25,297 nt of DNA from a virus: the IMG/VR virus record IMGVR_UViG_3300006028_000034, positions 1-25,297 of that record; one strand, written 5' to 3'. Positions 4,935 to 25,297 of this stretch are shown one piece after another. The translations under genes and the position numbers were made by a program. Every line of letters starts with the position of its first letter. The stretch's first letter is position 1. The notes under the pieces were generated by a model. That model was not told where the DNA came from. It did not search any database and saw nothing but the letters and a program-made list of their open reading frames with translations.

Positions 4935-5252
4935 TTAGGCTCGAGGAAGAGGCACTCTATACTCAACCGCGAGTTCAGCGGCGAGCTCGCGCGTAATCTG
5001 AAGCTCAGTTGGGCATGGCCAACCTCGGGCCGACCAGTGATCGAGCATCTGGTTGAGCGCAACCTCAGCCTCAGAGTACATAGCCCTGGGATCGACAACC
5101 GGATGAAGCGGACTGCGCCACGGCTCCAAGCTCGATTGCGTCGGAGCTACAGGCTTCGGCGCCGCTGGCTCTGAAGTTTTGGCCGCTAATGCCGCTGGAG
5201 CCGCAGCCGATGCGGTCAGCAATCCAAAGAAACTGCGTCTCGAAAGGTTCAT
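4935..5252 (-). CDS. Tat-signal exported protein of unknown function
   Basis: The frame is open further upstream, but ATG 5252 is preceded by GAGGAG (4-base spacing) and starts an obvious twin-arginine signal: MNLSRRSFFGLLTASAAAPA, with AALAA as a likely cleavage region near residue 24. The mature part of about 80 residues is Pro-rich at first and ends in a helical region (YSEAEVALNQMLDHWSARGW, then ELQITRELAAELAVEYRV). No family recognised. It is convergent with 4626-4928 (6-base gap) and divergent from 5269 (16-base gap), as expected for an inserted cargo gene. Tat export implies folding, perhaps with a cofactor, before crossing the inner membrane. Confidence 0.75.
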   Translation of the reverse strand: MNLSRRSFFGLLTASAAAPAALAAKTSEPAAPKPVAPTQSSLEPWRSPLHPVVDPRAMYSEAEVALNQMLDHWSARGWPCPTELQITRELAAELAVEYRVPLPRA

Positions 5253-7260: not shown

Positions 7261-8511
7261 ATGGCAAACCAACTTTTGACCAGACAGGAAATGGTCTGGG
7301 GAGTGCTCGAACCGCTGAGCAATAACACCGTCGCCATCCCGAACACGACCCGCGACCTAGACCAGGAATTCGGGCGCAAGGGAAACAAGATCGGCGACAC
7401 AATCTATGTAGCCAAACCGTGGCGCGCAATCGGCCGCGACGGCGCCGCCTACCAACCCGAGGGCCTGATCGACACCCAGGTACCCATCACCATCAACCAG
7501 CAGTCGGGTGTGGACTTCCAGTTCTCGAGCCAAGAAAAGTACCTCAGCTTGGACGCGATGAAAGACCGGTATCTGGACAAGGCCGGCCTCTCCCTCGCCA
7601 ACAAGCTCGACCTACGACTCTTGCAGATGGCCGTAGTCAACACCGCCAACCTCGTCGGCACTCCCGGCACCACGCCGGGACTCTCCGGCTCGAATGCGTT
7701 CCAGATTTGGGCGCAGGCCGGCCAGAAGCTCGACGAAATGGGCTTCCCGCTCAAGGGCTCGACCCGCTGCGCGTTCATTACGCCCGCGATGAGAGTCGGC
7801 TGGATCACCAACCAGACCGCGTTTTTCAATCCGCAGAACGCGATCGGTAAGCAGTGGAAGACCGGCCAGGTGGAAGATGCGCTCGGCTACGAGTGGTATG
7901 TCGACCAGAATATCCCGACGCAGACCATCGGAGTTCTGGGCGGCACGCCCGCCGTCGTCGGCGCAGGCCAGACCGGAACCAGCATCCTGACCAATGGCTG
8001 GACGGCCACAACCGCCACCATCGCCGTCGGCGATAACGTCACCTTCGCCGGCGTCTATGCGGTCAATCCGCAATCGCGCCTCTCGACCGGTTCTCTCCAG
8101 GACTTCGTGGTCCAGGCATTGGGTACCGCGGACGGCTCGGGCAACATGACGCTAACCGTCACCCCAGCCGTCGTTCCATCCGGAGCGTTTCAGAATGTCT
8201 CGGCCTCGCCCGCCTCTGGCGCGCTCATCAACGTGTACCACGCAGCGGCTGCCGGACAGTCCGCCCTCTCGGCGCTGCAGACCCCCCAGGCGCTGCTCTG
8301 GGACAAGCAGGCTTTCGCGTTTGTCAGCTTCCCCGGTGACGTCCCGGAGGGAGTCGACATGGGCTTCCAGGACCAGGATGACGACATCGGCGTGAGCGTC
8401 CGGTTTGTGCGCCAGTTCATCGGCGCCACCGACCAGATGATAAATCGTTTTGATGTGTACTATGGAAGCGGGCCTTTATATCAGGAAGGCAGCGTAAGGA
8501 TTTGCGGGTAG
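7261..8511 (+). CDS. Major coat protein, P22 gp5-like
   Basis: The 416-residue length is close to P22 coat protein (430). Family-like features: N-terminal helix (MVWGVLEPLSNNTVAIPNTT), KIGDTIYVAKP at residues 43-53, PITINQQSGVDFQF at 75-88, and the helical GLSLANKLDLRLLQMAV from residue 109. A central beta-rich insertion (about 215-310) is followed by the end region GFQDQDDDIGVSVRFVRQF and YYGSGPLYQEGSV. It would form the HK97-fold icosahedral shell in the cytoplasm. It directly follows the scaffold gene. No Shine-Dalgarno is visible; a tandem repeat occupies the leader. Gene order scaffold-coat supports the call. A nuclease remnant follows its stop. Confidence 0.9.
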   Translation: MANQLLTRQEMVWGVLEPLSNNTVAIPNTTRDLDQEFGRKGNKIGDTIYVAKPWRAIGRDGAAYQPEGLIDTQVPITINQQSGVDFQFSSQEKYLSLDAMKDRYLDKAGLSLANKLDLRLLQMAVVNTANLVGTPGTTPGLSGSNAFQIWAQAGQKLDEMGFPLKGSTRCAFITPAMRVGWITNQTAFFNPQNAIGKQWKTGQVEDALGYEWYVDQNIPTQTIGVLGGTPAVVGAGQTGTSILTNGWTATTATIAVGDNVTFAGVYAVNPQSRLSTGSLQDFVVQALGTADGSGNMTLTVTPAVVPSGAFQNVSASPASGALINVYHAAAAGQSALSALQTPQALLWDKQAFAFVSFPGDVPEGVDMGFQDQDDDIGVSVRFVRQFIGATDQMINRFDVYYGSGPLYQEGSVRICG

Positions 8512-20663: not shown

Positions 20664-21377
20664 ATGTCCTCCTCTCTGACTCAATTCGCCAACGCCGCTG
20701 GCCTCGACCTCGGCGTCATGGACTCCGGCGGCGCTTTCTCCACTCAGCAGTATCTGGATATCCTCGCCAAAGCCAACCGGATCCTCGACAACTGGTCCGC
20801 CGATCAGATCCAGATTCCATGGGCCATCAAGAGCTCGGTGGCCGTCACCGCCAATACGCGGCTCTATTCCGTCGGTCCGGGCGGAGCGAACTGGGCGCTC
20901 GGGAGCCTTTACGCGCCGGTCAAGTTTGTTGCCGCGGCGCACAACGTGGGTGGAACCGGGCAGATTACGCCGGTTAAGATCGTGAGCCCAGTCGAATGGG
21001 AGTCGATTGCCGACCGGGATGTGAGCGCGAACCTCATCAAGTACCTGTTCTATCAGCGCGGCTCGATCGGCACATTCCAGGCATCGGCCGCAATTTCTCC
21101 CGCGCCGCTGCAAAACGGGACGCTCGAGCTTGTCTGGTGGGATCGATTCACCCAGTTCGCCGATGTGAGCACACCCGTCACGTTCCCGCCAGGCTACGAG
21201 CGCGCCTTTCAGTTGGAGCTCGCACTCTCGATCGCGCCGATGTTTGACGAAACGCCGTCTGCCGATCTCCAGGCGGAGTATGGCAAGGCTATGAACGCGC
21301 TGCGCAAGCTCAATGCCGACCTATGGGGCGTGGATTCTCTGGCTCCGGAGCAGGCGGCGGTGAAGGCGACGGAATAA
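20664..21377 (+). CDS. Tail adaptor (head-completion) protein, P22 gp4-like
   Basis: 237 residues, no signal peptide. The pattern fits the P22 gp4/tail-accessory family: N-terminal helices (FSTQQYLDILAKANRILDNW), an aromatic/basic segment, then TRLYSVGPGGANW and beta strands (VKIVSPVEWESIADRD), and a C-terminal helix with YERAFQLELALSIAPMF and AEYGKAMNALRKLN. P22 gp4 (166 residues) attaches under the portal and starts tail assembly. A second, shorter homologue begins at 24812 and shares LDxW and Y-(S/T)-(V/I)-GPG. The gp10-like gene follows immediately, as in P22-like tail modules. Confidence 0.8.
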   Translation: MSSSLTQFANAAGLDLGVMDSGGAFSTQQYLDILAKANRILDNWSADQIQIPWAIKSSVAVTANTRLYSVGPGGANWALGSLYAPVKFVAAAHNVGGTGQITPVKIVSPVEWESIADRDVSANLIKYLFYQRGSIGTFQASAAISPAPLQNGTLELVWWDRFTQFADVSTPVTFPPGYERAFQLELALSIAPMFDETPSADLQAEYGKAMNALRKLNADLWGVDSLAPEQAAVKATE

Positions 21378-21381
21378 GCGC

Positions 21382-22890
21382 ATGAAGTTAGTCCCGCCAG
21401 CCGAGTGGGCTTTCAATGGTCCGACATACCTCGCCGAATCGCCCGTCTTCGACTGCCAACGCGCTGTGAATCTTTATCCAGAATTTGGATACAAGACCAG
21501 CAAGACCGGCATCGCCCTGATCGGCACGCCGGGTCTGGCGACTTTCATGACGCTGCCGACCGCGCCGGTTCGCGCGCTGTGGGCGGGTTCCACCGCACTC
21601 GCTGGCCGCAATAAGCTATTCGCCGTCGGGGGCACGCATCCCTATCAGTTGGGCAACGGGGGCGTGGTCATCCACGATTACGGGGCGATGGCCGTTAGCG
21701 ACGGCACCGGGCCATGCTTTTTCAAAGAAAACGGGCTACAACTCCTCGTTTTAGACACTTCCGCCCTGGAGATTTTCAACCTCAATAACAGTGGATTCAC
21801 CGCCGATCCAGTGTTCAGCGCGACCGCCCTTGAGTATCTGGACGGGTTTTACGTGGCGATCGCCGCCGGCGGAAGTCTGGCCGGCCCCAATCCGAACCAG
21901 ATCAACGTATCGGCGCCACTCGATGGAACCACCTGGCCCGCGCTTGCTTTCGCCATCCGCACCGGCGCCGCCGATCTCATCACGCAACTCTGCGTCGTCA
22001 ACAATAAGCTGTGGATATTCGGCCAGAAGAACATCGAAGTCTGGTACAACGCTGGCTCGTCTCCCTTCCCGCTCGCCCGCATTGACGGGATGACGATCAA
22101 CCAGGGGCTGCTGCTGCCCTACTCGGTCGTTAAGCTCGACAATACCGTGTTTTGGGTTGGCGCCGACGATCGCGGCTATGCGGTGGTCTATCGCGCCAAC
22201 GGGCAACAGCCGCTCCGGATCTCCAATCATTCGGTCGAGAACTTTATTTCCACATGGGCGCAGACCGGCTCGGCCAACGCCTTCGCATACCAGGAGCGAG
22301 GCCACACCTTCTACGTGCTGAACTTCCCACTGGCTGTCGTCGGCGGCGGACAGGTAGGCGCGACGCTGGCTTATGATCTGGCCACGCAGATGTGGCATGA
22401 GCGGTACTACCTGAACCCCGGCAGCGGGAATTTCGAAGCGGCGCGGCAATACTGCTTTGCGTCGATACCGAACTTCATGTCCGGCTCCAGCGCGACAACC
22501 AACTTCGCCGGCGACCGGAGCAACGGCAAGATCTACACGCAGAGCATCGAGATTGCGAGCGACGCAGGCGACGCCATCCGCCGGATCAGGACCAGCCCGC
22601 ATGTGGCTCCATCGGACCGCTGGATCAAGTATCCGCGCATCGAGTTCGAAGCGGATATCGGCAACGCGCAGATTATCCTGGACTACTCAAACAACGGTGG
22701 CCGGAACTTTGCGACCGGGACACCGACTTACACGCTCTCAAAGAGCGGTGAGAAGACACCCGGCGGGTTTGACCGCTACTTTCAGACGCAACTCGGCCGG
22801 TCGCGTGATCGAGTGTTCCGGGGAACCATCACCAGCTCAGCCGATCTGATCCGGCTGATTAATTCGAATTTGTACGTTGGGGGCCAATAA
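21382..22890 (+). CDS. Packaged-DNA stabilisation/tail protein, P22 gp10-like
   Basis: 502 residues (P22 gp10 is about 470). The N-terminus CQRAVNLYPEFGYKTSKTGI and then ALIGTPGLATFMTLPTAPVR is the typical opening of the phage stabilisation family. Middle blades: YLDGFYVAIA, WPALAFAIRTGAADLITQLC, LWIFGQKNIEVWYNAGSSPF, FWVGADDRGYAVVYRANGQQ. The end has RIEFEADIGNAQIILDYSNN and RVFRGTITSSADLIRLINSN. In P22 gp10 forms the tail hub below gp4 and keeps DNA inside. It starts 4 bases after the gp4-like gene and its stop abuts the next ATG. Confidence 0.85.
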   Translation: MKLVPPAEWAFNGPTYLAESPVFDCQRAVNLYPEFGYKTSKTGIALIGTPGLATFMTLPTAPVRALWAGSTALAGRNKLFAVGGTHPYQLGNGGVVIHDYGAMAVSDGTGPCFFKENGLQLLVLDTSALEIFNLNNSGFTADPVFSATALEYLDGFYVAIAAGGSLAGPNPNQINVSAPLDGTTWPALAFAIRTGAADLITQLCVVNNKLWIFGQKNIEVWYNAGSSPFPLARIDGMTINQGLLLPYSVVKLDNTVFWVGADDRGYAVVYRANGQQPLRISNHSVENFISTWAQTGSANAFAYQERGHTFYVLNFPLAVVGGGQVGATLAYDLATQMWHERYYLNPGSGNFEAARQYCFASIPNFMSGSSATTNFAGDRSNGKIYTQSIEIASDAGDAIRRIRTSPHVAPSDRWIKYPRIEFEADIGNAQIILDYSNNGGRNFATGTPTYTLSKSGEKTPGGFDRYFQTQLGRSRDRVFRGTITSSADLIRLINSNLYVGGQ

Positions 22891-23889: not shown

Positions 23890-24204
23890 TCAGGACTCCG
23901 GGGTGTTCAGCAACTTCAGGAATTCGTCGGAAGGTTTCGGCCAGACATAGGGCTGGCCGGTAGCCGGGTGATAACAAATAATTACGGGCGTTCCGTAAAC
24001 CTCCATCTTACTCGCCATCCGCCAACCTTCCTCCCACGGGACAAGCCTGAGTGGCGGCGGGAAAGTCGGTGGGTTCTGTAAGTGCTCCAAAGCCTTGGGT
24101 CTGTCGGAAAAATAGAGCGTAAAGCCCAGAACCGTAGCAATCAAAAACATAAATGCCGCCACCTTGCCGGGATCTGAGAGGTCGGACACGGTAACGGGCA
24201 GCAT
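23890..24204 (-). CDS. Membrane-anchored accessory protein, 104 residues
   Basis: ATG 24204 overlaps the upstream Tat gene's stop by one base (TGATG), so the pair is an operon. One membrane span at about residues 13-31 (KVAAFMFLIATVLGFTLYFS) is followed by an external/soluble Pro-rich domain with PLRLVPWEEGWRMASKMEVY, GTPVIICYHPATGQPYVWPK and PSDEFLKLLNT. No family recognised. Coupling to a Tat-exported protein suggests both act at the inner membrane or periplasm. Confidence 0.7.
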   Translation of the reverse strand: MLPVTVSDLSDPGKVAAFMFLIATVLGFTLYFSDRPKALEHLQNPPTFPPPLRLVPWEEGWRMASKMEVYGTPVIICYHPATGQPYVWPKPSDEFLKLLNTPES

Positions 24205-24800
24205 CAGGATTTCACGACACCCAGACCATAGATCATGTCGAAACGCAGAATGCGGGTTGCCGTCGGATCGAAGCGGCGTTCTCCCGTAACGACCAATAAG
24301 TTGGCGCCGCCAGCGCGGCGGACAGACTGAATGATTCTCTCAGCAAGGCTGAGTCCGAGCGGCTCGATGCGCCTCTCTGAATACTCATCCCACGCGCGAT
24401 GAATGGGGCAGGAATGGTAATTGTCAAGATCTATATCGACTGCCACTTGCTGAAGTAGCGTTACTGGCGTCAGGTGGTCCAGGGGCGACAAATGGTAATG
24501 CGGTGACCAAAGGGGAAGCGGAGTCCGTACCATGACTGTGTCGCCTGATTTGACGGTGCGCCATTCGTCCACGGCCCATTGATTCATCCGGAGCCACTTC
24601 AGCTCGCGCTCGACTACTTCCAGTATCCGGGCGCTCAAAATCTCCAGTGGTTGGTAGCTCTCAATGGGAGTAGGGCGTTCGAGCGAGACTGCGTGCAGCC
24701 AGTTCTCATGCGTCGGATCGGCGATCAACTTCGGCCCGATGATCTTGCCAAGCACAGCCCCGGCGAGCAGCCCCAGGAATCCGCGGCGCGTTGTTTCCAT
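24204..24800 (-). CDS. Tat-signal protein with coat-protein-like body
   Basis: 198 residues starting METTRRGFLGLLAGAVLGKI, a clear twin-arginine signal. The rest shares three motifs with the coat protein encoded at 7261, in order and at nearly the same spacing: KSGDTVMVRTP (residues 84-94) versus KIGDTIYVAKP (43-53); PVTLLQQVAVD (112-122) versus PITINQQSGVD (75-85); GLSLAERI (149-156) versus GLSLANKL (109-116). It therefore looks like a truncated relative of the coat N-terminal half carrying an export signal. This is by eye; chance similarity is possible. It is operonic with 23890-24204 and starts 11 bases from the divergent 24812 gene. Confidence 0.75.
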   Translation of the reverse strand: METTRRGFLGLLAGAVLGKIIGPKLIADPTHENWLHAVSLERPTPIESYQPLEILSARILEVVERELKWLRMNQWAVDEWRTVKSGDTVMVRTPLPLWSPHYHLSPLDHLTPVTLLQQVAVDIDLDNYHSCPIHRAWDEYSERRIEPLGLSLAERIIQSVRRAGGANLLVVTGERRFDPTATRILRFDMIYGLGVVKS

Positions 24801-24811
24801 GACCTAATTGT

Positions 24812-25297
24812 ATGCCCCAAACGTACACCTTCGCCCAGATCGCCTACCGCGCCTACCGCCACATCAGCGGCCATCGCGCCGCCATGGTGCTGTCGCCCGA
24901 CATCCTAAACGATATCTTCGGCGAGGGCACAGACATGCTCGACGAGTGGCTGAACGACGAGAACATGGTTTTCGCCCGGCGCCGGGACTCCTGGAGCCTC
25001 TTGGCTGGCGTGCAGGCGTACACCATCGGGCCGGGAGCGGATTTCAATGGTCCGCGCCCCACCAATATCGACGAGGCGAATGTCATCCTCACGACCAGCA
25101 ATCCGCCGATCCGCAAGCCGGTCCATATCGCCACCGCTTCGGAATTCTCGCTGATCGCGGTGCAGGGCATTCCGTTCGCCATCCCGCAGGAGCTCTGGTA
25201 CGACAATAATTTCTCAGACACAGGCACGGCCACCATCAACCTGTGGCCCGGTCCGCTCGCCGACTACCTGCTCGAGCTGTACACCTGGCAGCAGTTG
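24812..25297 (+). CDS. Second P22 gp4-like tail adaptor, 5' part only
   Basis: ATG 24812 opens a frame that runs to the right edge with no stop, giving the first 162 residues. It begins MPQTYTFAQIAYRAYRHISG, then SPDILNDIFGEGTDMLDEWL, an aromatic/basic SWSLLAGVQAYTIGPGADFN, and beta text ending LELYTWQQL. It shares the LDxW helix and the YxxGPG strand with the protein at 20664. The rest of the gene lies outside the window. Two adaptor genes 3.4 kb apart suggest a duplicated or mosaic tail module. No Shine-Dalgarno is visible in the 11-base gap to the divergent Tat gene. Confidence 0.75.
   Translation, partial: MPQTYTFAQIAYRAYRHISGHRAAMVLSPDILNDIFGEGTDMLDEWLNDENMVFARRRDSWSLLAGVQAYTIGPGADFNGPRPTNIDEANVILTTSNPPIRKPVHIATASEFSLIAVQGIPFAIPQELWYDNNFSDTGTATINLWPGPLADYLLELYTWQQL

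Follow-up and report, generated by a model that had tools for sequence, protein, structure and literature searches.

A putatively Tat-tagged, internally deleted relative of the P22-type coat protein belongs to a recurring set of export-tagged coat fragments in P22-like phages

The protein of 198 aa encoded at 24204..24800 on the minus strand of the stretch analyzed here (the window, a 25,297-bp IMG/VR virus record with a P22-type head cluster inside it) is almost certainly a homologue of the P22-type coat protein, and, as judged from sequence, it is not unique: Tat-tagged coat fragments recur in P22-like phages, and it is one of them. The gene starts with ATG and its product, which we call the mini-coat, begins METTRRGFLGLLAGAVLGKIIGPK. 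It is probably a Tat-tagged, domesticated and internally deleted P22-type coat in which the N-arm, F-loop, E-loop and P-domain are retained.

The initial annotation had based a relationship to coat on three motifs common to this ORF and the full-length P22-type major coat protein of the window (7261..8511, plus strand, 416 aa; PF11651, 1.7e-30; phrog_283, 3.5e-64). The motifs are K43-IGDTIYVAKP, P75-ITINQQSGVD and G109-LSLANK in the coat and K84-SGDTVMVRTP, P112-VTLLQQVAVD and G149-LSLAER in the mini-coat, and the spacings given for them, 32 and 34 residues in the coat and 28 and 37 in the ORF, proved exact. A fourth collinear match had been overlooked at the C-terminus (RFDMIYGLG in the ORF, RFDVYYGSG in the coat); taken alone, this match in the window protein is not significant in a shuffle test. 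A chance resemblance of motifs, with coat kinship absent, would be in keeping with the weak direct match of the ORF to the window's own coat (pairwise BLASTP) and with the lack of any meaningful match of the ORF itself in Pfam, PHROGs, PADLOC or, by sequence, the PDB. Opposed to it is a single-pair BLASTP match to the P22-type coat encoded on contig L018 (29% identity along 112 aa; E 2e-8, a value somewhat flattered because L018 was chosen by the motifs common to the ORF and the window coat), as is hhalign of the ORF against a 15-sequence coat profile (P 82%, E 1e-5). In 3,000 shuffles of the protein body, none attained the HMM score of the real sequence (7.1–8.3 bits, against 3.2 for the best shuffle) or its BLAST score (39.7 against 28.5).

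The decisive evidence on coat kinship comes from a second sequence. Searching for RRxF(L/F) followed at the correct distance by G-x-T-x-x-x-(R/K)-x-P yielded an orthologue in contig L063 (5589-6269) with the same architecture and 42% identity to the window protein (tblastn E 2e-40), the sequence common and peculiar to the two lying in the linker and spine helix. On its own, the orthologue matches the coat-only profile in order at 44-116 (E 3.5e-4) and 332-386 (E 2.9e-7), and it matches PHROG 283, 'major head protein', with E 1e-3. When a two-member profile of the ORF and the orthologue was searched against every ORF of the collected loci, the only other matches above the inclusion threshold were P22-type coats, with E from 9e-10 to 2e-3 and in most cases two collinear segments. 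The proposed coat relationship is thus borne out by BLASTP, hhalign, the two-member and coat-only profiles and the shuffles, with a compatible predicted fold; the motif similarity is, at the level of sequence, real homology, and chance resemblance is barely credible in the face of the orthologue and profile results that contradict it. No close relatives emerged when viral and genome contigs were scanned with the single sequence or when phage records were searched by tblastn, and a scan of genome contigs with the shared motifs confirmed no candidate.

Using the domain borders of P22 gp5 (PMC9965877), we could map the protein segment by segment. Residues 1-27 (METTRRGFLGLLAGAVLGKIIGPKLIA; 24720..24800, minus strand) form an N-terminal twin-arginine-type signal by sequence and TIGR01409. 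Residues 52-159 (24324..24647, minus strand) correspond by BLASTP and hhalign to coat residues ~8-119, that is, the N-arm, F-loop, E-loop and first part of the P-domain with the spine helix, and residues 165-194 (24219..24308, minus strand) correspond to the last P-domain strands (RFDMIYG, compare RxDVLYG), more clearly so in the orthologue. The A- and I-domains are missing, and where they would begin the spine helix leads into a short GGA turn; the absent coat region is ~120-355 in the window protein and ~120-331 in the orthologue. Because the full subunit with A- and I-domain is absent, the mini-coat is by its sequence a coat relative and not a coat protein, and the 'domesticated shell protein', which the initial annotation put forward as one option beside a possible decoy and a superinfection or assembly interference factor, fits this anatomy. 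When coat rows were included in the alignment, AF2 gave for the ORF a model of modest quality (pLDDT 58, pTM 0.56) in which the segments follow one another as anticipated: an N-arm helix (52-70), strands at 88-92 and 110-124, a long helix (137-162) and a hairpin (168-194). VIA-align ranks the P22 procapsid coat 8i1v first for this model (Z 8.3, rmsd 5.5, 138 aligned), and the places below it are taken almost entirely by HK97-fold shells. Foldseek with the same model returned nothing at E <= 0.001, and a model of the orthologue from three Tat-coat rows alone, without coat rows, reached a pLDDT of 34; for these two reasons the support for the HK97-type fold comes by way of homology and is not independent.

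With regard to the signal, the (S/T)RRxFL motif and the hydrophobic region at residues 3-27 (METTRRGFLGLLAG) fit a Tat tag and are kept in the orthologue. The proposal of such a tag is supported, with a reservation: the window protein itself stays below the TIGR01409 cut-off (13.0 bits against 16.7), but the orthologue (17.7) and proteins of L029 (17.1) and L123 (17.0) pass it, as do further relatives at 19.6-21.2 bits, so that the cut-off is exceeded in six contigs (L063, L029, L123, L129, L130 and L133). The hydrophobic stretch contains a conserved lysine, and the cleavage site is not conserved between the window protein and the orthologue, which together suggest that the signal is uncleaved. 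The lysine, the unconserved cleavage site and the sub-threshold score could also be taken to mean that there is no Tat signal: the N-terminus would then be a plain hydrophobic anchor or a false positive, and the mini-coat would be a minor virion protein or a decoration protein. We regard this as rather improbable, since RRxFL is kept in all siblings (partly through selection by the scan), relatives on six contigs exceed the Tat cut-off and a TatA gene is present in L133. A real Tat-type or membrane-targeting signal is, in our judgment, highly probable.

Two scans with a Tat plus LWxP...F(L/I)P pattern that included no coat position gave ~7 coat-bearing ORFs among ~15 Tat ORFs, on L120, L123, L129, L130, L029 and L063/L071; as the scans select RRxF(L/F), these counts say nothing on the frequency of coat fragments without a tag, one of which was seen (L120:1051-1347). 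The tag is joined to N-arm pieces in L029 (1365-1682, between terminase and portal genes; coat 3-56, E 2.9e-14), L123 (coat 3-60, E 3.8e-11) and L130 (coat 6-38, E 7e-11), and to the I-domain in L120 (E 3e-14). In L129, one Tat ORF resembles the window protein in being an N+C form that lacks the middle (coat 3-60 plus 348-381), and another carries C-terminal coat 354-384; a third Tat-tagged gene (7311-7652, plus strand) lies immediately upstream of the gene with the C-terminal piece. A minus-strand frame of L071, which is the same contig as L063, reads NRRAFL...LLWEPGRKKIFIPPP...VGDVLEFAGRYAVNP and combines a Tat-like start with an I-domain piece (E 2.4e-4). Lastly, five Tat-like genes stand one after another in L133 (4639-7806, minus strand), two with coat C-terminal pieces, one of these also with a weak I-domain piece. 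The domain-sized fragments known are the N-arm, I-domain and P-domain. All carriers are fragmentary metagenomic contigs. A full-length P22-type coat is also found on L029, L123 and L133, and one truncated at the contig end on L063 and L130; in the short records of L120 and L129 no such coat is seen.

Two side observations concern N-terminal sequences in this group. A module of the form ~(L)D(P/I)E(R/K)xLWVPGxKTxF(L/I)P follows the signal and precedes quite different passengers (L120:656-1054, L122:7943-8275, L130:3187-3618, L132:6549-7247, L133:4639-5190 and L116:8309-8683), with an AxA-like site just ahead of it in several carriers. Full-length P22-type coats at L130:11396-12112 (plus strand) and in L139/L140 (G018) have a conserved N-terminal predicted TM extension, and where a coat normally begins no alternative start is evident.

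Next to the row of Tat-like genes in L133, with all five directly after it, lies a TatA homologue (8003-8215, minus strand; PF02416, 56 bits against a cut-off of 21). This contig also encodes terminase and portal genes, and its terminase large subunit is present as two separate ORFs flanking the TatA/Tat-like stretch. A motif search for TatA in the 25 kb of the window found none. It is possible, and we suggest it tentatively, that P22-like phages run a dedicated export programme in which host Tat moves proteins made of the phages' own virion pieces into the envelope or anchors them there, and, equally tentatively, that the phage's own TatA supplements host Tat in one of them.

At its locus, the mini-coat gene is followed by an ORF of 104 aa with a hydrophobic N-terminal segment (23890..24204, minus strand), the start of which overlaps the mini-coat stop (TGATG); it is a probable operon partner and has no family match in Pfam, PHROGs or PADLOC. 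On the other side, a gp4/SU10-adaptor-like head-completion gene (24812..25297, plus strand; phrog_12985; PF24175 at 3e-4, below cut-off) runs past the record end and points away from the mini-coat gene, the two start codons being 11 bp apart. It is the second of two gp4-like genes in the window; the first, starting at 20664, lies with a gp10-like gene (head closure Hc3, start 21382) at 20664..22890 on the plus strand, as part of the same late cluster, by matches to phrog_12985 and phrog_578. At least four gp4-like paralogues occur in phage contig L071 (3339-7983, plus strand). The window also holds a second Tat-like ORF (4935-5252, minus strand; MNLSRRSFFGLLTASAAAPAALA...), whose weak similarity to a gp4-like helix (E 0.002 in a set of 35 sequences) hints that it may be a piece of another virion protein; an origin from coat was ruled out for it, as a coat match is absent. 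A promoter scan found none, and one terminator-like site was seen, fewer than chance would give. The ORF, its partner and the relatives tested match no PADLOC model of an anti-phage defence protein.

The base composition of the mini-coat frame (GC1/2/3 = 0.64/0.43/0.66) and its slightly positive codon log-likelihood (0.057 per codon, exceeding that of the tested antisense ORFs) make it plausible that the frame is coding. This bears on the idea that the tagged pieces are neutral, functionless remnants of coat recombined behind signal sequences, an idea to which the variable extent of the fragments between phages and the shortness of some (93-108 aa) lend themselves. The open frame and fitting codon usage speak against it, as do the architecture and 42% identity kept between the window protein and the orthologue, with their own linker and spine-helix sequence, and the recurrence in L129 of the N+C form without the middle. 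We therefore consider neutral remnants quite improbable.

Our best guess, which we think probable, is that the mini-coat is an envelope-anchored Tat substrate built from a domesticated coat P-domain. The small P-domain would fold in the cytoplasm and the RR signal would direct it to the host Tat translocase. We propose that the protein would then stay in the inner membrane by its own signal, because a conserved signal-peptidase site is absent, and would expose its coat-derived domain on the outer side; a role there as an envelope factor is conceivable, directed perhaps at competing phages or, late in infection, at the envelope itself. We lean, with somewhat less assurance, towards the protein being exported or anchored outside the cytoplasm. 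Tat-tagged genes share the strand of late genes in L063, L029, L120, L129 and L133, whereas the window gene has the opposite orientation. Because the siblings are mostly co-directional with late structural genes, we think it likelier that the protein acts late in infection than that it serves early superinfection exclusion.

The same co-orientation with late genes would suit the main rival reading, in which the RR/hydrophobic N-terminus fastens the coat-derived subunit to the inner membrane from the cytoplasmic side as a tether for head assembly, its N-arm, E-loop and P-domain binding scaffold or coat and localizing or capping growing procapsids. In P22, scaffold binds the coat N-arm (PMC9965877), and both this arm and the E-loop are among the retained parts; the predicted TM extension on two full-length coats of related contigs is a further hint. 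A working Tat signal would carry the domain out of the cytoplasm, however, positive-inside topology also puts it outside, and several siblings consist of the I-domain only or the last strands only. Such a tether is in our view unlikely, and any one named function for the mini-coat would at present be doubtful at best.

To our knowledge, phage capsid proteins have been thought active only in the cytoplasm and the virion. In the open-access literature we found no description of Tat-tagged capsid proteins or fragments, so that the absence of precedent is provisional, and no relevant work on phage TatA. Since several related phages carry comparable export-tagged coat pieces, the data suggest that phages send parts of their own shell to the bacterial envelope or anchor them there. 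If true, the recurring proteins with export signal and coat piece, accompanied by TatA in one phage, would mean that capsid domains have been exapted for envelope work, or, alternatively, that head assembly in such phages is tied to the membrane.

Compared with the P22-type coat (PF11651, gp5; phrog_283), the mini-coat has the N-arm, F-loop, E-loop and P-domain segments in the same order and a compatible predicted fold; the coat, however, has ~416 aa with A- and I-domains, whereas the mini-coat, with 198 aa, neither domain and a Tat-type N-terminus, could not as such form a complete HK97-fold shell subunit. Tat substrates (TIGR01409/PF10518) are typically host enzymes, often with cofactors. 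Their S/T-R-R-x-F-L followed by a moderately hydrophobic stretch is seen in the mini-coat as well, but its passenger is coat-derived, and a capsid-derived passenger was not found for them in the open-access literature. For TatA/TatE (PF02416), the related contig L133 has its clear homologue beside Tat-tagged genes, and none was found in the window. Encapsulins, HK97-fold shells domesticated by cells, rank high in the VIA-align comparison with the mini-coat model and likewise reuse the HK97 fold outside the virion. The mini-coat as an encapsulin was rejected, with the A-domain missing and no nearby cargo gene recognized in the ORF list, Pfam or PHROGs: encapsulins are whole subunits with an A-domain and without an export signal, whereas the mini-coat is encoded by a phage, comprises part of a subunit and bears a Tat-type tag.
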